Shown in pieces: positions 4,610 through 41,928 of a stretch of 64,000 nucleotides of DNA. Position numbers and translations under genes: made by a program. Below the pieces are notes generated by a model that did no database searches, had not been told where the DNA came from, and saw nothing but the letters and a program-made list of their open reading frames with translations. Position 1 is the first letter of the stretch. Each line of letters begins with the position of its first letter. The stretch lies in the NCBI GenBank assembly GCA_004347685.1, contig SLTJ01000032.1:1-64000 (forward strand). The letters are read 5' to 3'. This stretch comes from Clostridia bacterium. Lineage in GTDB: Bacteria; Bacillota; DSM-521; Neomoorellales; SLTJ01.

Positions 4610-7600
4610 TTAAGCCAAGTCGGCCAGAGAATCCTTGATTTCTTTGAGTTCGGCGTCGGTCAGGCCCCAGAGCCGGGCCGCCAGCTTATCTATCTCTTCC
4701 TCCACCGCAGCCAAGCCATCCACATCCCCGGACGCAGCCAGGGCATGGGCCTGTTGGGAAAAGGAGGCCAGGGCGAGATGGAGCGGATCTTCACTGTCAA
4801 AGGCTGGCACCCGCAGGTACTCAAGCAAGTGCATAGATCCGAAGCTCTTTCCCCCTTTTTGGGCGTAGGACTGCGCAGCAAAATTGAAGGGCGCGGAGTT
4901 GATCAATGCACACAGATAATGGGCTAGGCTGGCGTCTGTTGCCTCGACCAGGGTAACTGTTTCCTGAGGGATAACGGGCTTACCTTCTTGGGTACTGAGC
5001 ACCGCGCAGATGATCTCAGATGCAATTCTGCCCCACACCACCTTGTACGGGGCAAAGGTGTAGTCGCCCACAGCGAACATGGTATAGAACGGTGCGCCTT
5101 TCTTGATCATGTCGATTACTCCCCGAGAACGTCGCTGCCGCAGCACCTCCTCAAAGCGCTTCAGGTAGCTGTAGGTCTTGGGGTAGCGGTCGCTCATTTC
5201 GTCTTCGGGGATTGCTTTAAGTCTCTGGCCAGGTAGGTGGGTAACTAGTATAAAGGCCGAAGGCGCGGCCTGCCACTTACCTACGTCCCGGCCCCGTAAC
5301 AAGGGATATAAGAGGTCGGGCTCGACGGCCGCGGTGACTTCTTCCACTTCGCGCCTTGTGCCCTCGGTGATGTTACTCACCACTACCAGGCCGTCCGGCC
5401 GCTGGCCCACGATTTCCACCCAGTACACCCCGTTGGCTCCGCCGGAATACGCGCCGGCATGGGCTTCATAATCCGAGGGCCCCAGGATCTTTTTCACCGC
5501 CCTTACTGCTTTCTCCCTCCCGGTGAGCCAGGCCGCGGTAGGGTCGTTGGTGTCCACCGGCTCGGCCACGAACCGGCTTACCCGCACCCGGGCCAGCACT
5601 TCCTCCAGCTTCAGATCGGGCCGGATGCCATCGCCCCGGCCGGCTTTGCGCCAGTAATTGTATTGTACGGGGTAGCGGTGGGGCAGGCCTTTCTCCAGGA
5701 TGACGATGCTGGTGCGGTTGCTGGCCCCCTCGAAGGGCTGCAACTCGGAGAGGTCGTCCACGAACTGCACCCGCACCGGCACCCCACCCGGCAGCATGAA
5801 GCGGCGGAACCCCTGGCCGGCCCCGGAGGTCTTGAACACCGACTGGGTGATGACGAAGCCAAGTTTGCCCCGGGGCTTGAGGTAGCGGTCCAGGGCCACG
5901 TAGGTCATAAGGATTGAGATGTCGTCTTTGCTCTTGCCTAAGATAGCCTCGAATCCCTTATGAGGGAAAAGCTCATACTTGACCCAAAGGTAGGCTGTCT
6001 GTTGCCGGTAGTTTTCCGGCAGGCTCTCCCAGTTCACCCAGGGAGGATTGCCGGCCACGTAGTCGAAGTAATTTTGCCGGAAGAGGGGCTGGAAGGCGTT
6101 CTTGATAATGCCGGCCCAAACGCCGTTGAGGCCGCGGGTTTCCAGCTCCAGGAGTTGCCGGTAGAGTCCCTCGACCACGGTAATGTCCCCCTCGTCCGGC
6201 CCTTCCAGCAGGGGAAAGGCGGCGGTGAGGCGGCGGCGGAATTGCTCGGCCGTTAATTTGTCCTGCACACATTCTTCCAGCAGGCCGGTGAGCCGGTCAA
6301 CGTAACTGGCGTCCACCAGGGACTTGGGCAGGGTAAAGGTGCCTACCGGCTCCGCAGCCCTAAAAGAGACGGTGTGCTTCTGCATAGCTCCCCACTCTGG
6401 GTTCTGCTCCTCACTGGGGGTGAGGATGGAGTCGGCCAGGTAAACCGGGATATCTACATCGCCCTTCCGGTGGGGGAGCAGGTCGCCCACGGCCAGGAGG
6501 TAGTTGGTGCGGGCGGAAATTACGGCCAGGGGGTTGAGATCAAAGCCCACCACGTTGGCCAAAATCTTTTCTAGCACCTGGCTCTCGGGAATCATTTTCT
6601 CCAGGGCGTATTCCCGCATCTTCTTGATTGCCAGCACCAGGAAGGTGCCGGAACCGCAGGCCGGGTCGAGGAGCCTTTTATCGAGGTTTCCCTGGAAGGA
6701 CCCGGCCTCCAACTGGTTTAAGAGCCGCTCGGCCAGCCAGTCCGGGGTGTAGTATTCGCCCAGGTTGTGGCGCAGCCGGGCCGGCACGAGCTGCTGGTAA
6801 AGTTTTTTCAAAAGGTCCCGGGTTTCTTCGGGATCCACGTCCAGGGTGATTAGGGAGTAGTCGGCCAGGGCGGCGATGATCCGGCTCAAAACAGCAGCCA
6901 GGGTATCGTCCCATACCTCCAGGAACCAGTTGAAGAAGTCCCCCTCGAGGAAGTTCTTCAGGCCGAACTCCCGAAAGATGCCGCCTTTCACGAGGTTCTT
7001 CCGCAGGTACTTGAGGAGTTCGTCCGGCGGCAGGCTGGCCACCTGAGCCAGCCCCGTGCCCAGCCGGGGAAAAGCGTAGTAGGCCACTACCTGCATGGCC
7101 AAAATCTTGATAAAGGTGGCGTAGTAGGTGTGCAGGGCAAAGAAAAAGGGCAGGGCCTCAACAGGGCCGGTGCGGATGCCGAAGCGGCGGGCCAGGGCCG
7201 CCATCTCCAGCTTGGATGAGTTCTCGGCGTAGCCGCAGACCTCGCTGAACTGCCGCGCCCACTGGTCAAAGAGCACCCGCACCCGGGGAGAGGTAGTGCG
7301 GGCGATGGTTTCGTAAAAGGTGCCCACGGCCAGCCTGGCAAGCTGGGTATTTTCTCCGAAGTCGCGGATCAGGTTCTCCGGGGTCACCGCCTTTTCCGTG
7401 CTTAAAGAAGTGAGGTAGCGCAGGAAGCGCTCGGTGGAGGCCGGGCTCACCGGCAGGGGGTCGTCCTCGATCCAACGGCCCTCTTTATAGCGGGCGAAGA
7501 TAAAATAGGTGCCGTCCAGCACCACCCCGGCCAGGCGCTCCGGCCGGTGCCGTTCCAGCCGGTGGAGGTCGTCAATATACTGCTTGACTTGGTCCAAGGC

Positions 7601-7885
7601 GTGGCGGTTGGCTCGGCTTTTGTTGCTCTTATTGAGGGAGCCGGGCCTTTCGTACTCCACCACCAGCCGGTTGTAGACCGTATCGGCCCGGCCGTTTAAG
7701 AGGGTGCGCTCGTGCTCGGTATGGAAGTCCAGCCCCAGCGAGGCGCCAAATCCTTCAATGGCCGGGGCTATCCTCTGCCGGAACTGCTCCTCGTTCCCAC
7801 CGGCCCCGGCCTTCTTGAGCAATGCGGCTAGCCTCGGGGCTTCTTCCTTGATGGCGCGCTCGGCTTCCAGGATATCTAAAGGCAA
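4610..7885 (-). CDS. fused nuclease-domain / N6-adenine DNA methyltransferase (type IIG-like)
   Basis: A 1091-residue protein. Residues 1-110 look like a PD-(D/E)xK-type domain (GRAD at 65-68, VVEYERPG at 75-82, QVKQYIDD). A helical region follows (about 180-370), then an N6-adenine methylase: GEYYTP, motif I DPACGSGTF (407-415), VVGFDLNP, and motif IV NPPW (613-616). The C-terminal 400 residues would be target recognition plus linker. It should bind SAM and methylate adenine; cleavage activity is inferred. In the nuclease motif the expected Lys is Glu (E77-Y-E79). Start TTG 7885 is supported by GGGAGGGAG. It lies 24 nt after the HerA-like gene, so it belongs to that operon. Alternatives are a BREX/PglX-like methylase or an Eco57I-family enzyme. 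Confidence 0.8.
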   Translation of the reverse strand: MPLDILEAERAIKEEAPRLAALLKKAGAGGNEEQFRQRIAPAIEGFGASLGLDFHTEHERTLLNGRADTVYNRLVVEYERPGSLNKSNKSRANRHALDQVKQYIDDLHRLERHRPERLAGVVLDGTYFIFARYKEGRWIEDDPLPVSPASTERFLRYLTSLSTEKAVTPENLIRDFGENTQLARLAVGTFYETIARTTSPRVRVLFDQWARQFSEVCGYAENSSKLEMAALARRFGIRTGPVEALPFFFALHTYYATFIKILAMQVVAYYAFPRLGTGLAQVASLPPDELLKYLRKNLVKGGIFREFGLKNFLEGDFFNWFLEVWDDTLAAVLSRIIAALADYSLITLDVDPEETRDLLKKLYQQLVPARLRHNLGEYYTPDWLAERLLNQLEAGSFQGNLDKRLLDPACGSGTFLVLAIKKMREYALEKMIPESQVLEKILANVVGFDLNPLAVISARTNYLLAVGDLLPHRKGDVDIPVYLADSILTPSEEQNPEWGAMQKHTVSFRAAEPVGTFTLPKSLVDASYVDRLTGLLEECVQDKLTAEQFRRRLTAAFPLLEGPDEGDITVVEGLYRQLLELETRGLNGVWAGIIKNAFQPLFRQNYFDYVAGNPPWVNWESLPENYRQQTAYLWVKYELFPHKGFEAILGKSKDDISILMTYVALDRYLKPRGKLGFVITQSVFKTSGAGQGFRRFMLPGGVPVRVQFVDDLSELQPFEGASNRTSIVILEKGLPHRYPVQYNYWRKAGRGDGIRPDLKLEEVLARVRVSRFVAEPVDTNDPTAAWLTGREKAVRAVKKILGPSDYEAHAGAYSGGANGVYWVEIVGQRPDGLVVVSNITEGTRREVEEVTAAVEPDLLYPLLRGRDVGKWQAAPSAFILVTHLPGQRLKAIPEDEMSDRYPKTYSYLKRFEEVLRQRRSRGVIDMIKKGAPFYTMFAVGDYTFAPYKVVWGRIASEIICAVLSTQEGKPVIPQETVTLVEATDASLAHYLCALINSAPFNFAAQSYAQKGGKSFGSMHLLEYLRVPAFDSEDPLHLALASFSQQAHALAASGDVDGLAAVEEEIDKLAARLWGLTDAELKEIKDSLADLA

Positions 7886-7909
7886 CGGCTTCTCCCTCCC
7901 AGGGTGAAC

Positions 7910-9571
7910 TTAGCGCTGTTCCTGCCGGTAGGCCGGCTTGGGGAAGATGATCTTCACTGGCTGGCGGTAAACCGCGTGGCTGATCAGGAGTTCGCCCTTG
8001 CCCAGCCGGGTCATGCTCATCTTCAACTCGTCGTCCAGGAAACGGTAATCAGGTTGGGCCACTTCCGCCGCGCCGGTGCGGCCCAGGATCTTGGTGGCCG
8101 CGTTGCCGGTGACCCGGTTGTGCACCGCGCTCATGAACTGCTGGGCGGAGATCAAGATGACCCCCAGGGAGCGGCCCCGCTCGGCAATGTCGAGCACCTG
8201 CTCGGTGATGGGGGAGGTCCGGGCCCCGCCGGGAGCGTACTTGTTGAGCTCGTCCACGAAGAAGATTATCTTTTCCGGCACGGGCTCGCTACGGTCTTCC
8301 GGCTCCTCGGCCTTCAGTTCGTAAACGGTGCGCAATAGGTCGCCGAAGACCAGGGTCTGCTCGTCGTCGTAGAGCTTGGCGATGTCCACCACGTAGGTAT
8401 AGCCGCCCTTGATCTTGCGGACCTCGTCGGCCAGCACCTTCTGGTTTTTGGCCCGGGCGTCCATAAAGATGCCCGACTGCCGGGTTTTGACCAGGCGCCG
8501 CAGGTTGCGGCGGAACTTGCCCACGGAAGAGCGGTGGTGGTCGCCCCACCCCTTTGACTGGCCGTCCTTAAAAAGGGGCGGGCCGTTGAGGAGCTGGCTC
8601 CAGCTATGGACGTTCTTGAAGTCCCCCTCGTTATTGACGATCCCCTGCATGATGTCCCCGATAATGGCGTCCATTGTACCGGTGGGGTCGGAGACATTGG
8701 TGAACAGAAGGTCCAGCTTGTCAGCTGCGGCGTCCAGGTCGTAGGCGAACAAGTGATAGCCGTCCGGCTCGAGGAAGCTGTTGGGCCGGCCCGGATGCTC
8801 GCTGGAGGCCGGCAGCAAATAGACCACGTTCTTGAAGGGCCGGGGTTCAAGGCCCAGGTCCTCCCACTTTTCCATCTCCTCCACCGGCAGGGATGGGCCG
8901 GGTTTATCTATCTGCAACAGGTCGGCCTGCTTCACGTTCAGGATGATAACCGCTATCTTTTCCGGGTTGGCGGCCTTCTGAAGGATAGATTGAATAATGA
9001 ACATGGCGTAGGAAGTTTTGGTGGCCAGGCCGCTGATGCCGGAGATGTTGATGTGGGCCGACTCCGGCCCCAAGATGTACCGGCGGTCCAGGTAGGCCAC
9101 GGTGGAGGCGCCGTTGCTCATTTTGATCAGCCCGGCGGGGACCCGGTCGGCCGCCGGCATTTCGGTGATCCCCAGGGCTTCCTCGATCCCGGCCGCGTCG
9201 GCAAAGTGCACTAGGCGCTCGTTGGATACCGGCATGTAGATGTCCCGGTTGTTGCTGAGGACGTTGACCCGGCCCACGGTAGCCCCCTGGCGCAGGGTGT
9301 TGGGCTCCGCGGCTAGTTCCCCAAAGTTGTTGGAGATGAAGTTGGCTAGGTGACTGGCCGCGTCGGTCCGGTGCTCGAGGATGGTCACCAGGCCGTAGGT
9401 CTTGCTGGTCTCCCCGGCGGCCGGGCCTACCTGCTCCACCTGTACGATATCAAAGGGGTTGACGATCACCCCAGGTGCCAGCCAGAAGCTGAATTTATCC
9501 GAGGTGTTGGCCTCCCGCTCGGTGGCGGAAGTACGCCCCAGCGCGGAATTTCCAACTGTTTCGTCCGGCAT
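7910..9571 (-). CDS. HerA/FtsK-superfamily ATPase (DUF87-like)
   Basis: A 553-residue protein. Residues about 25-130 form a HerA-type N-terminal beta-barrel region (LAPGVIVNPFDIVQVEQV). The ATPase has an unusual P-loop GISGLATKTS (178-187), Walker B IIFFVDE (434-440) and a C-terminal ISAQQFMSAVHNRVTGNAAT segment typical of HerA. These proteins form hexameric DNA translocases that work with NurA nucleases in archaeal end resection and in some bacterial defence loci. Its ATG follows the NurA stop codon directly (TAG then ATG), implying coupled translation. A role in moving DNA for the paired nuclease and methylase is inference. Confidence 0.8.
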   Translation of the reverse strand: MPDETVGNSALGRTSATEREANTSDKFSFWLAPGVIVNPFDIVQVEQVGPAAGETSKTYGLVTILEHRTDAASHLANFISNNFGELAAEPNTLRQGATVGRVNVLSNNRDIYMPVSNERLVHFADAAGIEEALGITEMPAADRVPAGLIKMSNGASTVAYLDRRYILGPESAHINISGISGLATKTSYAMFIIQSILQKAANPEKIAVIILNVKQADLLQIDKPGPSLPVEEMEKWEDLGLEPRPFKNVVYLLPASSEHPGRPNSFLEPDGYHLFAYDLDAAADKLDLLFTNVSDPTGTMDAIIGDIMQGIVNNEGDFKNVHSWSQLLNGPPLFKDGQSKGWGDHHRSSVGKFRRNLRRLVKTRQSGIFMDARAKNQKVLADEVRKIKGGYTYVVDIAKLYDDEQTLVFGDLLRTVYELKAEEPEDRSEPVPEKIIFFVDELNKYAPGGARTSPITEQVLDIAERGRSLGVILISAQQFMSAVHNRVTGNAATKILGRTGAAEVAQPDYRFLDDELKMSMTRLGKGELLISHAVYRQPVKIIFPKPAYRQEQR

Positions 9572-10753
9572 CTATTCTCCCTCCCCTACGTTTTCTTGGC
9601 CTTCCGGGCCGGCCTGCGCGCGGGCTTGCGGCCAGCGGATGGCCCCCAGCAGTACGTCTTCGGAAAAGAAACGGTTCTTGATGGCCTGTTCGGCCATGAA
9701 GATCGGGTAGAGGTGGCAGTGCCAGCGCCGGTCCCGGCCATAGGGGGTGACGTTGCGCTCGGCCACCAGGGCCCGGGAGATCAGGTCGGCCAGCTCCGCC
9801 TCCACCGGCGTGCCGCCGGGCCGCGGCAGCTCCACCTTCACCACCCCCATCAGCGGGTAGTCCAGCTCCCGCTGCTCCCGCAGCCGCACGTACCAGAAGG
9901 CTACTTTGCCGTTGTAAGCACTGAAGGCGGCCGTCCGGTGGGCGTGAGGCAGGCCGGCCAGGATGGCGGTAACGTCCCGGCGGTCCTCACCCCGGCCCCG
10001 GGACCTGCGGCCTAAGTAAAACTGCGGGTCCTTACGGAACGACTTGGCCACCCCGACAAGATACCGGCTCTCCACAAACTCGTCCAGCTTTACCGCGCCG
10101 TCTAGGATCAGCCAGTTGTGCGCGTCGCGAGAGCCATCCGTGGCCCTGATCATTTCGATCTCCAGTTCGTGCATGCGGTGCCTGGCTTTGGCCCCGGCTT
10201 TGTTACGCAGGTCGCCTTCTTGATCTTCCCGGTTCAAGGCATGGGTTTTGCTGACATCGTGGAGCTCTACGAGCCCGTCTGACCGGTCAAAGTGTTCCAA
10301 CTGGTGCCAGACCGCGTCTGAAATTCCTTTCGCCCCTTTGGGGAGCAGAAGTAAGACCTTGTGCTTGCTGGCCAGCAACCGGAGGTTGCCATCGGGTCGG
10401 CGTTCGATCACGGCCGCGCCCACCTGGGCCAGCTCAATGGGGAAGGAACGGTTCCCTTCAATACCTGTGGCCAGGAAATAGGTGCGGATGCTGCCGTCAA
10501 TGAAGAACCGGTAGAAGGGCTGCTCGATGCGGGGCAGTGGAGGCGTGGGCCGGTAAAGGGAGGTCAGGCTGGGCGTTGGCGTCTCGGCAAAGGCCGTTAC
10601 TTCCCCCATCTCCCGGTTGATCAGGGTATCCTCCAGTTCCTCCGGATCGGGATGCAGGTAATCTTCCACGGCCTTGCCGGCCGCCGGGAGCACGTCTATA
10701 TTGTCGGCCAGCACTTCCAGTACCGGCGTTAATTCGGCCAGGGGATTAGGCAT
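9572..10753 (-). CDS. NurA-like nuclease
   Basis: A 393-residue protein with NurA-type landmarks: FFIDGS (D86-G87-S88) opening an RNase H-like fold, a second acidic strand LILDGA (D218), RYLVGVAKSF (about 230-239), and a C-terminal YPIFMAEQAIKNRFF region. NurA is a Mn2+-dependent 5'-3' exonuclease/endonuclease that acts with HerA. It is the first gene of a minus-strand operon with the HerA-like ATPase, nuclease-methylase and DUF3800. GGGGGT precedes ATG 10753. The 268 bp upstream hold no other gene; the operon promoter probably lies there, but no convincing -35/-10 pair is visible. Confidence 0.75.
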   Translation of the reverse strand: MPNPLAELTPVLEVLADNIDVLPAAGKAVEDYLHPDPEELEDTLINREMGEVTAFAETPTPSLTSLYRPTPPLPRIEQPFYRFFIDGSIRTYFLATGIEGNRSFPIELAQVGAAVIERRPDGNLRLLASKHKVLLLLPKGAKGISDAVWHQLEHFDRSDGLVELHDVSKTHALNREDQEGDLRNKAGAKARHRMHELEIEMIRATDGSRDAHNWLILDGAVKLDEFVESRYLVGVAKSFRKDPQFYLGRRSRGRGEDRRDVTAILAGLPHAHRTAAFSAYNGKVAFWYVRLREQRELDYPLMGVVKVELPRPGGTPVEAELADLISRALVAERNVTPYGRDRRWHCHLYPIFMAEQAIKNRFFSEDVLLGAIRWPQARAQAGPEGQENVGEGE

Positions 10754-11021
10754 GACTATTACCCCCTAGATTCCACAGACCATCACCATCACCATTTTTC
10801 TGCCTGACACAGGTAAATTCGCCATAAATAGTGGGAAGTCCTCCCAGGGCAAAGTCAAAAAGTTATTCCCCGCTCACCCGACATATACGGCAGAAAATAG
10901 CTAGGCGGTGGTTGAAGCAGTCGTTTCGACAGTTAGAGGAAGCATTTTGGCTGGTCGAGCCGGCAGGCTTTTTATGTACGCGGCGGCCTTCATCCGCTAT
11001 CCCTCAGGAGACTGATCGCGT

Positions 11022-11436
11022 ATGTTCGCGGATACCCGCGGCACGTCCACCCTGGAGACCGCGCTGATGCTCCCGGTGCTGCTCTTCCTGACGCTGGGGA
11101 TCTTCGCTTTTACCCACGTGACCTTCCTGAAGGTCGCGGCCACGGAAGCCGCCAGGGAAGCAAGCCGGGCGGCGGCGGTGACCTATGACGTCCCCGGCAA
11201 GGACTGGCGCGCGCAGGCCCAGGTGAAAGCCGGCGATGTCCTGCGCACCGTGGGGGTGAACCCAGCCACGGCGGACGTCAAAGTTTCCGTCAGCGGCGAC
11301 AGTCAAAGTCCCCGTGCCGGGGGCCGTGGTGTCGGTCATGCGGCTGGTCGGCGGGGGCGATCTGTTCGAGGGCCGCTATTTGAGGTCGGAGGCTGGCGCG
11401 AAGCTGGAGCCAGTCTGGTCTACCGATCCAAGATAA
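11022..11436 (+). pseudogene. TadE-like pseudopilin-type membrane protein, frameshifted
   Basis: RGTSTLETALMLPVLLFLTL is the TadE/TadG N-terminal signature: a charged leader, a Glu, then one membrane helix. The frame is good to about 11300 (ADVKVSVSGD). The protein then continues sensibly only in another frame (VKVPVPGAVVSVMRLVGGGD) to a stop at 11434-11436. A single indel near 11300 broke it. No other tad genes are present, so this is probably a cargo remnant of a conjugative element. Confidence 0.65.
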
Positions 11437-11537
11437 TCAGCATTATCTTGGAATAGCAAAGGACTTAGCCGCGCAGTTTCAAGGGTTGTGGGCCTGCTGG
11501 TTTAGGGTAAAACTTTATCGTTATCTTGGGTTCAGAA

Positions 11538-11564
11538 ACACTTCGGGAAAATTTCCCGAAGTGT
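11538..11564. repeat. 13-1-13 hairpin, copy 1
   Basis: Perfect inverted repeat: left arm ACACTTCGGGAAA (11538-11550), centre A, right arm its exact complement (11552-11564). It has the same length and AAA-N-TTT core as four other copies in the island, but a different outer arm. Confidence 0.85.
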
Positions 11565-11654
11565 CACGGCGTCTCCCTGGAGGAGCGGGAGGCGGCGAGG
11601 GAGCGTATCAAAGAAGGCGCGAGGTTAGGGGCAATAATTACCGATACTGGCGGA

Positions 11655-11681
11655 CGCCCCAAGGAAACTTTCCTGGGGGCG
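11655..11681. repeat. 13-1-13 hairpin, copy 2
   Basis: Left arm CGCCCCAAGGAAA (11655-11667), centre C, right arm TTTCCTGGGGGCG (11669-11681). There is one mismatch, at the seventh pair from the centre (A opposite G), the same position and bases as in copy 5. Confidence 0.8.
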
Positions 11682-11751
11682 GGCCGGACCCGCGACAAGG
11701 CGGCTAGCTGCGCCGGCGACCCCGGCCGAACCTGGAGGCGGCGGTGAAAAG

Positions 11752-11778
11752 CCCGTTGTGCAAAATTTGCACAACGGG
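11752..11778. repeat. 13-1-13 hairpin, copy 3
   Basis: Perfect inverted repeat: left arm CCCGTTGTGCAAA (11752-11764), centre A, complementary right arm 11766-11778. It shares CCCGTT with copy 5. It lies just after the degenerate ParB-like frame. Confidence 0.85.
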
Positions 11779-11879
11779 GATCAAGGCAAAACCCGCGGCG
11801 GGGAGCGGGAGGCGGCGAAGGAAAGGCCGTGGGAAGCGGGAATAACAAACCTACTACCGTAACCTGGAGGTGACACGCG

Positions 11880-12194
11880 ATGAGCCGGGGACTGGGTGAG
11901 CAGCAGCGGCAGGTCCTAATAGCCCTGGCCCGCCACCCGGAGCGGGGCCGCGAACTGCCCCTGCGGGCGCTAAAGGCGGAGATGTGGGGCACGCGGCCGC
12001 GCTACCGCCTGATAGGGCGGCAGGTGGTGCGGGACGGCGCGAAACTTGCCGCGGGCCACGCCAGCAACCTGAACCGGGTATTAGCCAGCCTGGAGAGGCG
12101 CGGCTTAGTCCGGCAGTGGGTGGAATGCGACGGCGGCAGGCGCTACCGCCATATCGGCCTGACCAACCGTGGGTTAAGTGAGTATACACGATAG
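11880..12194 (+). CDS. small winged-helix DNA-binding protein
   Basis: A 104-residue protein, start supported by CCTGGAGGTGACACGCG before ATG. Residues about 5-100 read as a winged-helix domain: EQQRQVLIALARHPE, then a recognition helix ASNLNRVLASLERRGLVRQW and a wing VECDGGRRYRHIGLT. It is probably a transcriptional regulator or element-encoded replication accessory. Hairpin copy 4 follows 16 nt after its stop. The family is not recognised more precisely. Confidence 0.55.
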   Translation: MSRGLGEQQRQVLIALARHPERGRELPLRALKAEMWGTRPRYRLIGRQVVRDGAKLAAGHASNLNRVLASLERRGLVRQWVECDGGRRYRHIGLTNRGLSEYTR

Positions 12195-12210
12195 GTACTC
12201 ACTTAACAAT

Positions 12211-12237
12211 TCGGTCCAGGAAAATTTCCTGGACCGA
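12211..12237. repeat. 13-1-13 hairpin, copy 4
   Basis: Perfect inverted repeat: left arm TCGGTCCAGGAAA (12211-12223), centre A, complementary right arm 12225-12237. It is followed immediately by the 16-nt palindrome GTTGAACGCGTTCAAC (12241-12256), upstream of the recombinase. There is no T-run, so it is not a standard terminator on the + strand. Confidence 0.85.
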
Positions 12238-12278
12238 TTCGTTGAACGCGTTCAACTTGCTTAAGGAGGCGAATACCC

Positions 12279-13168
12279 ATGGCAAAACTCTACACCTTAA
12301 GCCCACTCCAGGCAGGCAAAATATCCGACCTGGCCCAGGACTTTCTGGCCGACCTGGGCCGCAGGGGCTACAGCAGCCACACAGTACGCGCATACCGGAG
12401 CGCCTTGGCCGGGCTGGCCGAAGCCCTGGAGGACAAGGACGCCGCCGAGATAACCGCCCAGGACCTGGCCGCGGCCCTGGACAAGGAGAACTGGGACACC
12501 GAAACAAGGGCCGCCCGCCAGGCTGCTGTAAGGAGCTTTTTTAAGTGGCTTTCGGACCAGGGCTGCCTGGCCCGCAACCCGGCTGCTGGGCTGGGCAGCG
12601 TCAAGCGGTGTGAGGGATTGCCCCGCCCCATCCCCCAGGGCGACCTGGACAAGGTGCTGCGGGCCGCAGACGACCTGCCCCTGGCCCTTAGGACTTTAGT
12701 CCGGCTGCTGGCCGATACCGGCCTGCGCGCCGGAGAAGCCCTGGCCCTGGACGCGGCTGACGTAACTTGGGACAAGGGCCAAGAGGCAGTAACCATAAGG
12801 CGCGGCAAAGGGGGCCGGGGTCGGGTGGTGCCCGTGACAGTGGACATGAAGTGCTACCCCCTATTGCGCCGCCTGTGCCGGGAGCAACAACAGGGGCCGC
12901 TGTTTGTAACGCAAGGGGCACGCGGGCGGATTATGACTGGGCATATTACTGGTGGCAGAAAACGTTACAAGCAGCCGGTATGGCTGACAAGGGATATACA
13001 ATTCACCAGCTCCGGCATTCTGCCATCACCCGCTGGGTGGCCGGTGGCATGAACCTAGTGGTCGTCCGGAGGGCGGCCGGGCACAGGAACATGCAGACCA
13101 CGGCCAGGTACGCTGAAGTAACCGGCGGGGACCTGCGAAGGGAGATGGAGAGGGTGACGCGGCCCTGA
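12279..13168 (+). pseudogene. tyrosine recombinase (XerC/D-like), frameshifted
   Basis: SD TTAAGGAGG precedes ATG 12279. The core-binding domain (LADLGRRGYSSHTVRAYRSA) and the first half of the catalytic domain are intact: Arg in TGLRAGEALAL and Lys in RRGKGGRGR. After LFVTQGARG (about 12912-12930) the frame goes wrong. The proper continuation (RADYDWAYYWWQKTL) with catalytic HQLRHSAI, GHRNMQ and ARYAEVT is in a second frame ending at 13168. The single slip separates the active-site residues, so the enzyme is probably dead. Confidence 0.75.
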
Positions 13169-13632
13169 ATCTGCTTATTATTTTGCCCTGTAACCGGCCT
13201 TGGCCAGGATACAGGTAAAAAACATTAGGGCGACAAGAAACTCCCCTTGCACCAAACGACAGAGGGCTGTTTTTTTTGCTAAAGCAAACGGGGTCCCGTT
13301 AAGGAAATTTTCCTGAACGGGCAGGGCTGGACAAGCTGTCCGGCCTTTTTCTTTGCTCCGGCAAAGCCCTGGCGCCGGGCCGAGCAGGCCGGCCCCGCGC
13401 GAGTCAGAGTCTTTTCCCGGCCCTTTTCGGTCGCGGCATTATACCGCTCTGGCGGCCTTAAAGGGTCAAGGGGTTCGGGCCGTGAACATATCCTCCCTCC
13501 GCTTCGCTCCGGTCCGGTATCCTTCCCGATCCCGGCTTCGCCGCCCCTTGACCCCCGGCCGCCGTGGCGGTGGCGCCGTAGGTGCCCGAAAGGGCGAAAA
13601 AATGGGTCGGCAGGCCAAGGGGGCAAAGCGCG
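13169..13632 (+). other. long leader of radC, no gene seen
   Basis: About 460 bp without a convincing ORF. It contains hairpin copy 5 (13295-13321) and a run of eight or more T near 13270. A segment at 13370-13460 resembles 1535-1630 upstream of the broken radC copy, which suggests a conserved leader or regulatory region carried with radC. Confidence 0.5.
13295..13321. repeat. 13-1-13 hairpin, copy 5
   Basis: Left arm CCCGTTAAGGAAA (13295-13307), centre T, right arm TTTCCTGAACGGG (13309-13321). There is one A/G mismatch at the seventh pair from the centre, as in copy 2. Confidence 0.8.
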
Positions 13633-14130
13633 ATGGCGCGGCAGTTGGCGCTGTTTGAGAAGGCGGGCAGCTATGCCCAGACAAAGGAGAAGGTTTACCG
13701 CGTGCAGGTGGTGAGGCTCCAGATGGTGCGGGAAGCCAGCCTGGCGACCTACGTCAGGACCATCGGCACACCGGCAGACGTGGCGGATTTAGTGAGGCCG
13801 CTGCTGGAGGGGGCGGACAGGGAGCACTTCTTGGTTCTATGCCTGGACACCAAGAACCGGGTAAGCGCCATACACACGGTGAGTGTGGGGACGCTCAACA
13901 GCAGCCCGGTCCACCCCAGGGAAGTCTTCAAGGCGGCCATCCTGGCTAACGCGGCCAGCGTCATCCTGGCCCACAACCACCCCAGCGGGGATCCGGAACC
14001 AAGCCGGGACGACCGGGAAGTCACGGCCCGCCTGGTGGAGTGCGGCAAGATCCTGGGCATCGGGTTGCTGGACCACGTGGTTTTAGGTGAAGGAAGGTTC
14101 TACAGCCTTAAAGAGGCGGGGCTTCTCTAG
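13633..14130 (+). CDS. radC: RadC-family JAB/MPN domain protein
   Basis: 165 residues from ATG 13633 (AAGGGGG upstream). The JAMM metalloprotease-like motif HNHPSGDPEPSRDD is complete, as is the preceding TVSVGTLNSSPVHPREVFKA block, so the catalytic zinc site is intact. It lacks the N-terminal HhH region of housekeeping RadC, which is typical for plasmid, phage and ICE-borne versions. The cellular role of RadC is unsettled. A second, broken copy lies at 1535-1803. Confidence 0.8.
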   Translation: MARQLALFEKAGSYAQTKEKVYRVQVVRLQMVREASLATYVRTIGTPADVADLVRPLLEGADREHFLVLCLDTKNRVSAIHTVSVGTLNSSPVHPREVFKAAILANAASVILAHNHPSGDPEPSRDDREVTARLVECGKILGIGLLDHVVLGEGRFYSLKEAGLL

Positions 14131-14439: not shown

Positions 14440-14631
14440 ATGGTAAACTGGGACGACCTGCCGCTGCTTCTCCGGGTTGAAGACGTAGCCAAACTGCTGC
14501 AAATAGGCCGCAATTCGGCCTATGACCTTTGTCACCGGCGGGGATTTCCGGTTGTGCGCGTAGGGCGCATATTCCGGGTGCCCAAGGATGGCCTGAAAAA
14601 ATGGCTGGAGCAGCAGACAGTCGTTGAATGA
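14440..14631 (+). CDS. excisionase-family helix-turn-helix protein
   Basis: 63 residues, LLRVEDVAKLLQIGRNSAYD then GRIFRVPKDGLKKWLEQQ: a MerR-like winged helix of the excisionase (Xis/AlpA) type. ATG 14440 has AAGGGGGTGA at good spacing; an upstream GTG (14431) is too close to it. It sits directly upstream of the integrase and probably sets the direction of recombination. A palindrome TGTGAA-TCAG-TTCACA (14395-14410) lies in its leader. Confidence 0.75.
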   Translation: MVNWDDLPLLLRVEDVAKLLQIGRNSAYDLCHRRGFPVVRVGRIFRVPKDGLKKWLEQQTVVE

Positions 14632-14651
14632 TGTGGTATTATATGTCACAA

Positions 14652-14670
14652 GGGGGGCCACAGGCCCCCC
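14652..14670 (+). repeat. GC hairpin between xis-like gene and integrase
   Basis: GGGGGGCC (14652-14659), loop ACA, GGCCCCCC (14663-14670), no T-run. It may attenuate or space translation between the two genes. Confidence 0.5.
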
Positions 14671-14699
14671 AAAGGGACAAAAGGAAAGGAGTGTGCGAA

Positions 14700-15890
14700 A
14701 TGGGTGGTAAGCGCGGGAACAACGAAGGCTCAGTCACCCAGCGCTCCGACGGCAGATGGCAGGGTGCCGTCACTACAGGCCGGGACCCGGCAACCGGCAA
14801 ACTCAAAAGGGTTTTCTTCTACGGCGCTACACGGGAGGAGGCTGCCAGGAAGGTGACTGCTGCCCTGGCCGAAGTGCAGCGTGGGACCTTTGTTGAACCG
14901 ACCAAACTCACTGTAGGCCAGTGGCTGGAGACCTGGCTGGTGGAGTATAAGAAGACCGAACTGCGGCCCACGACCTGGGATAGTTATGAGATAACGGCCC
15001 GTGTTCACATCAAGCCGGCCGTCGGCGAACTGAAGCTCAAGGACCTGCGGCCTGAGCATTTGCAGCGGCTGTATAATGAAAAAGCCAAAGCCGGCCTTTC
15101 ACCGAAAACAGTCACCTACATTCATACAGTCATTCACGGTGCATTGGGACAGGCCGTCAAGAATGGCCTAGTGATAAGAAACGTGGCCGAGGCCACCACC
15201 CTGCCCCGCAAGGTGAAGAAGGAAATTCGCCCTCTCACCCTGGAGGAGGTGAAACAGCTATTCGATGCCATTGAGCAGGACCGGCTATTCCCGGCTATTT
15301 ACTTGGAACTGGCCACCGGCCTGCGACGCGGCGAACTCCTTGGTCTGCGCTGGCAGGACGTGAACCTGAAGGCTGGGACCATTACCGTCAAGCAGGGACT
15401 TGTCCGGGTAAGGAACCACGAAGCCCAAGAGGGGGAGCGCAAGACTATGCTGGTGTTCCAGGAACTAAAGACGGCTACCGCCAGGAGGACTATTCCTATC
15501 CCGGAGGATGTCCTGGCCGAACTGAAACGGTGGAAGGCCCGGCAGAATGAGGAGAAACTGGCATTAGGCCAGGGATACCGGGATAATGGCCTGGTGTTTT
15601 GCGCTGAGGACGGCCAGCCGTTAGACCCCAGGAGCTTTACCCGACATTTCGACCAGATGCTGAAGTGTGCTGGCTTACCCCATATCCGTTTCCACGATGC
15701 CAGGCATACTTTCGCCACAATGATGCTGGAGCTTGGGGAGTCTCCCAAGGTGGTGCAGCAGATGCTGGGTCATAGTCAGATTGCCGTAACCCTGGATATT
15801 TACAGCCACGTATCCCTAGATCTGGAGAGGAAGGCGGCGGCCCGGCTGAATGAGGTGCTGAAAAAAGAAAAGGCCCCTTCCGCAAGGTAA
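14700..15890 (+). CDS. tyrosine-type site-specific integrase
   Basis: 396 residues from ATG 14700 (AAAGGAG upstream). It has an AP2-like arm-binding N-terminus (GSVTQRSDGRWQGAVTTGRD), a SAM-like core-binding domain (about 60-160), and a catalytic domain with Arg in TGLRRGELLGLRW, HDARHTFATMMLE, GHSQ and the Tyr in TLDIYSHV, all present. It resembles integrases of Tn916-type ICEs and phages. The gene ends about 140 bp from the 3' end of tRNA-Pro, which suggests integration at that tRNA. Confidence 0.9.
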   Translation: MGGKRGNNEGSVTQRSDGRWQGAVTTGRDPATGKLKRVFFYGATREEAARKVTAALAEVQRGTFVEPTKLTVGQWLETWLVEYKKTELRPTTWDSYEITARVHIKPAVGELKLKDLRPEHLQRLYNEKAKAGLSPKTVTYIHTVIHGALGQAVKNGLVIRNVAEATTLPRKVKKEIRPLTLEEVKQLFDAIEQDRLFPAIYLELATGLRRGELLGLRWQDVNLKAGTITVKQGLVRVRNHEAQEGERKTMLVFQELKTATARRTIPIPEDVLAELKRWKARQNEEKLALGQGYRDNGLVFCAEDGQPLDPRSFTRHFDQMLKCAGLPHIRFHDARHTFATMMLELGESPKVVQQMLGHSQIAVTLDIYSHVSLDLERKAAARLNEVLKKEKAPSAR

Positions 15891-15910
15891 GGGACCAAAA
15901 CCCGACAGCC

Positions 15911-15948
15911 TAGCCGGCAGGGATGGCTCCCCTGGCCGGCTATTCTTT
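15911..15948 (+). terminator. integrase terminator
   Basis: TAGCCGGCAGGG pairs imperfectly with CCCCTGGCCGGCTA across a short loop, followed by TTCTTTT. It is well placed 20 nt after the integrase stop. Confidence 0.6.
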
Positions 15949-16030
15949 TGTCCAAGGCCCGGTTGATGTCAGGTTGATGTCAAACCCTCTTTTGATGTCA
16001 CTAGCCGAACCCTGGAAGCCTTGATTTTGC

Positions 16031-16107
16031 TGGTCGGGGCGGGGGGATTCGAACCCCCGGCCTCTTGGTCCCAAACCAAGCGCGCTACCAAGCTGCGCCA
16101 CGCCCCG
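16031..16107 (-). tRNA. tRNA-Pro (anticodon TGG)
   Basis: The minus strand folds as a full cloverleaf: acceptor CGGGGCG/CGCCCCG, D-arm GCGC/GCGC, anticodon stem CTTGG/CCAAG with loop TTTGGGA (anticodon TGG), T-arm GGGGG-TTCGAAT-CCCCC, discriminator A and an encoded CCA. The 3' end points toward the integrase, the usual geometry of an attachment site in a tRNA gene. Confidence 0.95.
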
Positions 16108-41400: not shown

Positions 41401-41928
41401 GTGTCCAAGACAAACATCGTGTTGATCGGCTTCATGGGGGCCGGCAAGTCGGTTGTCGGCCGGGCCCTGGCCCGCAGGCTGCGCAAGCGATTTGTTGATA
41501 CCGACAGCGAGATCGAAGCTATGGCCGGGCTGGCTGTTCCCGAGATATTTTCCCGGCACGGCGAGCCATATTTCCGTCAACTGGAAAAACAGGTGGTCCG
41601 GCGGGTGGCGGCCGGGGAGCACCAGGTAATCGCTACCGGCGGCGGCACGGTGGTGGACGAGGAAAACGCGCGGCTCCTGCAGGCTACAGGCGTCATCGTG
41701 TGGCTTATGGCCTCTGCAGAGGCCGTTTACCGGCGCGTGGGGCAGGCGACCAACCGCCCCCTCCTGAGCGGGCCCGGTGAGGCTGACCCCCGCCAGCGCA
41801 TCCAGGAACTGCTGGCCCGGCGGGAAACCGTCTACCGCCAGCGCGCCGGCTTCAGCCTCAACACCGACGGGCTGACCCCCTGGCAGGTGGTCCGGGAGAT
41901 AGAAGCCCGCTTGAGTTATGAGTTATGA
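41401..41928 (+). CDS. aroK: shikimate kinase
   Basis: 175 residues from GTG 41401 (AAAAGGAG upstream). P-loop GFMGAGKS (about 10-17), DTDSEIEAMAG, FRQLEKQVV, ATGGGTVV and RPLLSG lid region. It phosphorylates shikimate with ATP. The longer in-frame opening from 41221 lies within aroC and is not used. Confidence 0.93.
   Translation: MSKTNIVLIGFMGAGKSVVGRALARRLRKRFVDTDSEIEAMAGLAVPEIFSRHGEPYFRQLEKQVVRRVAAGEHQVIATGGGTVVDEENARLLQATGVIVWLMASAEAVYRRVGQATNRPLLSGPGEADPRQRIQELLARRETVYRQRAGFSLNTDGLTPWQVVREIEARLSYEL

Follow-up and report, generated by a model that had tools for sequence, protein, structure and literature searches.

What are the five 27-nt palindromes at positions 11538 to 13321 of contig SLTJ01000032.1 from a Clostridia bacterium (assembly GCA_004347685.1), and what reads them? 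The window analyzed here is the first 64,000 nucleotides of that contig. A first-pass annotation had placed the palindromes around a winged helix-turn-helix (wHTH) gene and a tyrosine recombinase gene, as they indeed lie, had proposed that pairing rather than sequence is under selection, as for a folded nucleic acid or a protein that reads structure, and had known of no matching element type. The observation is confirmed and its interpretation partly supported. A matching type does exist, since like palindromes occupy a fixed place in ParB-like genes of phages, integrative and conjugative elements (ICEs) and plasmids. Judged from sequence, the window palindromes are probably operator- or centromere-like sites of a mobile-element ParB-like protein, here beside a decayed gene.

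Five palindromes with paired but variable arms

All five palindromes consist of 13-nt arms around a single central base with the core AAA-N-TTT. Three are perfect (pal1, 11538-11564; pal3, 11752-11778; pal4, 12211-12237) and two carry one mismatch (pal2, 11655-11681; pal5, 13295-13321), exactly as first counted. The whole window holds six palindromes of this geometry (loop 1, arm 13, at most one mismatch), the sixth of which, at 41920, is without the core. In 2000 dinucleotide shuffles of 11400-13400, four such palindromes arose altogether, with at most one per shuffle, versus five in the real sequence; the pattern is thus far rarer in shuffled sequence, and chance is excluded as its origin. 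It is also local. Palindromes with arms of at least 11 nt number 17 in 384 kb of the genome (the window plus 16 stretches of 20 kb), six of them within this 1.9 kb, and the core GGAAANTTTCC occurs at six places across the 3.12-Mb genome, four of these at the window locus. A covariance model of the five detected no further member in the genome below E 0.4.

When the five copies are compared, both sides have changed at 9 of 13 pairs and one side only at none, with 96.9% of cells paired; in the outer arms, pairing is kept at 38 of 40 positions although the letters differ. The claim that pairing outlives the letters therefore holds. However, the inner core GGAAA-N-TTTCC is common to four of the five copies, which means that sequence is conserved too, besides pairing. 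Likewise, the outer bases differ between copies in general, but pal3 and pal5 have most of their outer arms in common (6 of the first 8 bases). In the same phase, the centre of all five reads [EQ]-[NTI]-[FL].

Two known classes can be set aside here. A scan of 11000-14000 for intrinsic terminators (GC-rich stem and T-run) picked only 13323-13347 and 11809-11792 and none of the five, in line with the earlier remark that they lack T-runs. Membership in the integron attC/IntI system is not indicated either, the N-terminal part of the recombinase scoring 34.9 bits against TIGR02249, for which the cut-off is 265.

Palindromes within mobile ParB-like genes

ParB-like genes were gathered by protein similarity, and 51 other than chromosomal ParB/Noc were examined, of which 47 were left after near-identical genes (L106, L178, L181, L182) had been removed. 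When these 47 mobile genes of phages, ICEs and plasmids were each scanned along their full length, the highest-ranking palindrome in 31 was one just ahead of the helix-turn-helix (HTH), within the ParB-family coding sequence. These linker palindromes are 19-33 nt long, 16 of the 31 are perfect, and their sequence is variable between genes. They span Firmicutes ICE-type elements and Staphylococcus, Streptococcus, Vibrio and Pseudomonas phages, with perfect examples of 26 nt in Staphylococcus phage IMEP5, 24 nt in Vibrio phage eugene 12A10, 27 nt in L108 and 33 nt in L109. Top scores were 9 or higher in 28 of the 47 mobile genes (27 at the linker, L187 elsewhere) versus 3 of 40 chromosomal genes, where one of the three palindromes is parS and one a Noc site. 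Scored as misses among the 47 were L071, L075, L077, L080, L097 and others without a linker palindrome. Kept out of the count were the lead fragment (L065/L026), canonical-type or partial genes (L070, L078, L079, L082, L083, L084), and copies, frameshifted or unrelated genes (L060, L086-L093, L098, L099-L101, L162, L164-L176, L179, L185). Pfam searches of eight genes placed ParB_N ahead of the palindrome in all eight and an HTH_ParB match starting at or past it in five, four of these near or above the curated cut-off. Palindromes at non-linker positions were seen in two of the genes left out: the parB of a Nostoc plasmid (L084) has CCCATAACGTTATGGG three times in frame, and that of an Aphanizomenon phage (L079) has a 24-nt palindrome with one mismatch past the HTH instead of ahead of it.

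Is the palindrome simply dictated by the peptide that it encodes? When 39 mobile genes were shuffled synonymously, 200 times each, and scored gene-wide, no shuffle reached the observed score in 14 of them (L057, L069, L073, L074, L076, L081, L085, L094, L103, L108, L109, L111, L115 and L163), so that the palindrome is not a mere by-product of the peptide. Across 31 linker palindromes, pairing drops off steeply at a distance of some 12-13 nt from the centre; the paired fractions are inflated because the palindromes were chosen as the best per gene, and the shuffles serve as the control.

RNA of the + strand folds well, with z scores of -2.1 to -6.2, as might be expected of an mRNA hairpin that controls translation of ParB-like genes, with the window copies as relics or regulatory RNAs. 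However, in-arm mismatches on the coding strand comprise 3 G-T, 8 A-C and 9 others in 310 cells, and this lack of a G-U excess speaks against an RNA hairpin, as does the absence of one-sided changes in the window palindromes. Nor do they match a known RNA family, a tRNA being the only Rfam match in the window at the gathering score. Both the RNA-hairpin and the terminator readings are thus disfavoured, and we regard the former as very improbable.

In one family, changes in the site go along with changes in the recognition helix of the protein. Among 19 ICE-type genes, a helix of the type S[RK]NQ[IV] is accompanied by a CCCA half-site in 8 of 8 cases, and CCCA is present in 1 of the 11 others (Fisher 1.2e-4, a value that is too small given that related genes are not independent, the set including both L181 and L180 and L163 being 88% alike to L180; partial Mantel r 0.32, p 0.005). 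This association holds for the ICE set; in the window, the HTH is truncated. Four NQ genes kept out of the 19 since their top palindrome is elsewhere or weak (L102, L105, L106, L107) also have CCCA...TGGG at the linker spot, and L105-L107 keep these inner half-sites without full outer pairing.

These results bear on whether a structure, rather than a sequence, is being read. Cruciform extrusion or single-stranded folding during transfer, replication or recombination, for which pairing alone would matter, could account for the varied but paired outer arms, for the two-sided changes in the window and for the sharp limit of pairing in the 31 linker palindromes. Yet the inner core is conserved among the window copies and, in the ICE set, follows the recognition helix, L105-L107 show their inner half-sites without full outer pairing, and palindromes with almost no loop are poor at cruciform extrusion. 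We therefore consider structure reading unlikely, and a folded nucleic acid, which the first-pass annotation had taken for the natural reading, loses ground both to the mismatch pattern and to the way in which the half-site tracks the helix.

A ParB-like remnant at the window locus

How are the window palindromes connected to these genes? A blastn search of 11400-13500 against plasmids and phages retrieved nothing similar. A covariance model built from the five copies only (R1), run against 398 genomes of the phylum, matched seven others at E <= 0.003. Matches L018 and L020, in coding sequence that we take to be RhuM-type, look like chance, and L019, L022, L023 and L024 are lone palindromes with no ParB context seen. 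The informative locus is L021/L026 (G022:C31), where several different palindromes surround a short open frame. Over 44 residues, its peptide gave a 73% match to L057, an IMG/VR contig gene in which a ParB N-terminal domain is fused to an MT-A70 methyltransferase. Between the ParB part of this gene and an HTH-like GKTRDKVA segment, an in-frame palindrome of 28 nt occurs, its 13-nt arms perfectly paired. At the corresponding spot, a different palindrome is present in L059/L060 and yet another in L064. Over 160 kb of 48 sources, R1 found eight distinct places at E <= 1: two in L026, the linker palindromes of L057, L191, L183, L059 and L064, and one unrelated (L112), although one of the two in L026 is not independent, having brought L026 into the set.

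The window itself contains a ParB-like frame (11511-11744, + strand) with the end of the pre-linker helix, the linker and the start of the HTH; the N-terminal ParB domain is absent, which makes the frame a remnant. A profile of nine ParB-like linker-HTH segments ranked it first of 1399 window peptides (E 0.018, runner-up 6.6), and its peptide is 37% identical to the fragment in L026. pal2 is situated in this remnant between GGRPK and GRTRDKAA, the very position of the linker palindrome in intact relatives; the best ParB-like peptide of the window is the one holding pal2. pal1 encodes T-L-R-E-N-F-P-K-C in a frame running on into the remnant. pal3, with the core GCAAAATTTGC and the frame PVVQNLHNGDQGKTRGGEREAAKE, is again followed by a GxTR motif (QGKTR) and is probably also inside a ParB-like gene fragment; the putative second ParB-like frame around it (11722-11823, + strand) reads QGKTRGGEREAAKE and includes a recurrence (11802-11822, 95%) of the 21-nt sequence at 11582-11602. 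No ParB-like reading frame was found around pal4, which is placed between the wHTH and recombinase genes, and pal5 is 3' of the recombinase gene, immediately ahead of a terminator-like hairpin with a T-run (13323-13347, + strand). A sixth inverted repeat with a different core, TCCAAGATAATCAGCATTATCTTGGA, occurs at 11427-11452, and its half TTATCTTGG recurs about 80 nt on, at 11521-11529.

The wHTH gene (11880-12194, + strand) encodes a protein of 104 aa. Its match to a MarR-like winged HTH is weak, and no relatives of it were found. pal3 and pal4 bracket this gene, and pal4 is 42-68 nt ahead of the recombinase start, an arrangement that would suit local operators of the wHTH protein with no relation to ParB. 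We think this improbable, as the five-copy model retrieves ParB-like linkers and the L026 cluster, the wHTH protein has no counterpart in genome G022 at E <= 1e-6, and pal2 falls within the ParB-like frame. A perfect 12-nt inverted repeat (GTTAAGTGAGTA/TACTCACTTAAC) at 12173-12207 extends across the wHTH stop codon and adjoins pal4.

As for the recombinase, a type of protein that the first-pass annotation had named as a possible reader, proximity is all that connects it to the palindromes. The Xer-like gene (12279-13168, + strand) is split by a frameshift near 12920, where a pseudogene, a programmed shift or a sequencing error are all possible, and no close or useful relatives were found. On its 3' side, 47-48 bp (13212-13258) are 83% identical to G000:C10:61251-61298 (L010), which adjoins an apparent second recombinase gene; the stretch may be a recombination site.

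A mobile element that entered permissive linkers and intergenic DNA is a further possibility, given that the window and the surroundings of the L026 fragment have palindromes inside genes as well as between them, and that palindrome length is fairly constant (19-33 nt). Rickettsia palindromic elements, which are mobile palindromes within coding sequence, offer such a model. Here, however, no sequence is common across genes, the codon position is identical every time, and the linker of L075, a relative that has no palindrome, is no shorter, so that insertion is not evident. We give this explanation very little credence.

We favour the following reading, which would account for the palindromes as protein-binding sites. 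A mobile ParB-like gene would carry its own site in the codons of the linker between its N-terminal ParB domain and its HTH. The two inner half-sites (GGAAA in the window) would be recognized by a homodimer, in the manner of ParB on parS and Noc on its site. The protein would thus nucleate on its own gene and could repress it, load onto the element, or both. As helices diverge between elements, the site would diverge along, and the symmetry of the dimer that reads it would keep it palindromic. Of the ParB-like gene in the window, only fragments would survive after decay; pal2, and probably pal3, would still occupy the linker position, and the other three palindromes (pal1, pal4 and pal5) would be either additional sites or what is left of additional linkers. 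All five may have served one protein family. The locus is probably a relic, or else an array that has lost its reader or whose reader is off the assembled contig.

Several observations weigh against this reading. In 16 of the 47 mobile genes, the top palindrome is not at the linker, and in IMEP5 and in 50 of the 55 kb of phiAH14a the palindrome is without a second copy, a single site per phage versus an array in the window. The centre is 2 nt in intact genes with the GGAAA core and 1 nt in the window copies. The profile match of the window fragment is weak (the E of 0.018 given above), pal4 and pal5 are outside any ParB-like context, and searches of this genome turned up no intact mobile ParB-like gene, either with the ParB part of L057 as query at E <= 1e-10 or with profiles A3 and A4, whose single matches (that of A3 at C6) were taken for chromosomal ParB, their sequence unread. 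The helix association, besides the kinship of its genes, is complicated by the fact that the half-site also codes for part of a conserved peptide (Q-V-G/Q-V-V). Finally, one protein should favour one sequence, yet the outer arms of the five differ while pairing. This variety would fit separate origins from several ParB-like genes, since L057, L059, L064 and L072 have GGAAA in common and different outer arms; structure, or template switching that perfects palindromes, would explain it as well.

Elsewhere in the window, a Type IIG restriction-methyltransferase (PADLOC, 1213 bits), a HerA-like protein and an unmatched 393-aa neighbour occupy 4610-10753, and an integrase beside the 3' end of a tRNA-Pro (14628-16107) likely marks the right end of an integrated element. 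The left end, or an attachment repeat on the tRNA side, was not found within the window, which begins where the contig begins.

Known ParB sites and what a private site would mean

Intragenic sites are known from chromosomal members of the ParB family. The window cores, GGAAANTTTCC or GCAAANTTTGC, do not by eye agree with the consensuses TGTTTCACGTGAAACA and TATTTCCCGGGAAATA, those for parS and the Noc core having been taken from PMC7383237. A parS match with no more than one mismatch to the consensus is intragenic in five (L121, L140, L142, L147, L151) of 45 chromosomal ParB/Noc loci, and the exact Noc core ATTTCCCGGGAAAT in four (L134, L139, L145, L157). B. subtilis parB likewise has parS within it (PMC4333373, PMC4442127), as a single site according to PMC4333373. 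The mobile palindromes resemble parS in parB (spo0J) of Bacillus and relatives (PMC4333373) in being palindromes in the own gene of a dimeric HTH reader. In contrast to parS, which is 16 bp and nearly fixed in sequence, they are longer, ahead of the HTH and widely divergent, whereas intragenic parS is past the HTH in L142 and at the gene end in L140 and L151. The Noc-binding site (NBS) likewise has its exact core within noc, and its GGGAAAT resembles GGAAA, but it is fixed in sequence and dispersed over the chromosome (PMC8429893). The mobile palindromes, unlike NBS, occur as a single copy per phage or, in the window, as a local array. Both L026 and the window, where multiple inverted repeats accompany a parB-like gene, are also reminiscent of sopC-type plasmid centromere arrays, although the repeats of those arrays are near-identical and the copies here each differ.

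ParB-CTPase-fold proteins have been surveyed across phages and mobile elements (PMC12704722), and no description of the DNA targets of the mobile ones was found in the accessible part of that survey. Nor did we find palindromes inside mobile ParB-like genes described in the accessible open-licence literature, most subscription papers being outside this scope.

Whether the arrangement is general is a bolder proposition, to which we give slightly less than an even chance: phage and conjugative ParB-like genes may generally carry a fast-evolving, private 'address' palindrome at the hinge ahead of the HTH, co-diverging with the helix, such that gene and site form one indivisible unit with an element-specific, non-cross-reacting partition or regulatory specificity. 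If each gene holds its own site, the targets of mobile ParB-like proteins would be readable from sequence alone. This would provide many protein-site pairs for studying the co-evolution of DNA-binding specificity and target, and would put the function of mobile ParB-like proteins to a direct test.
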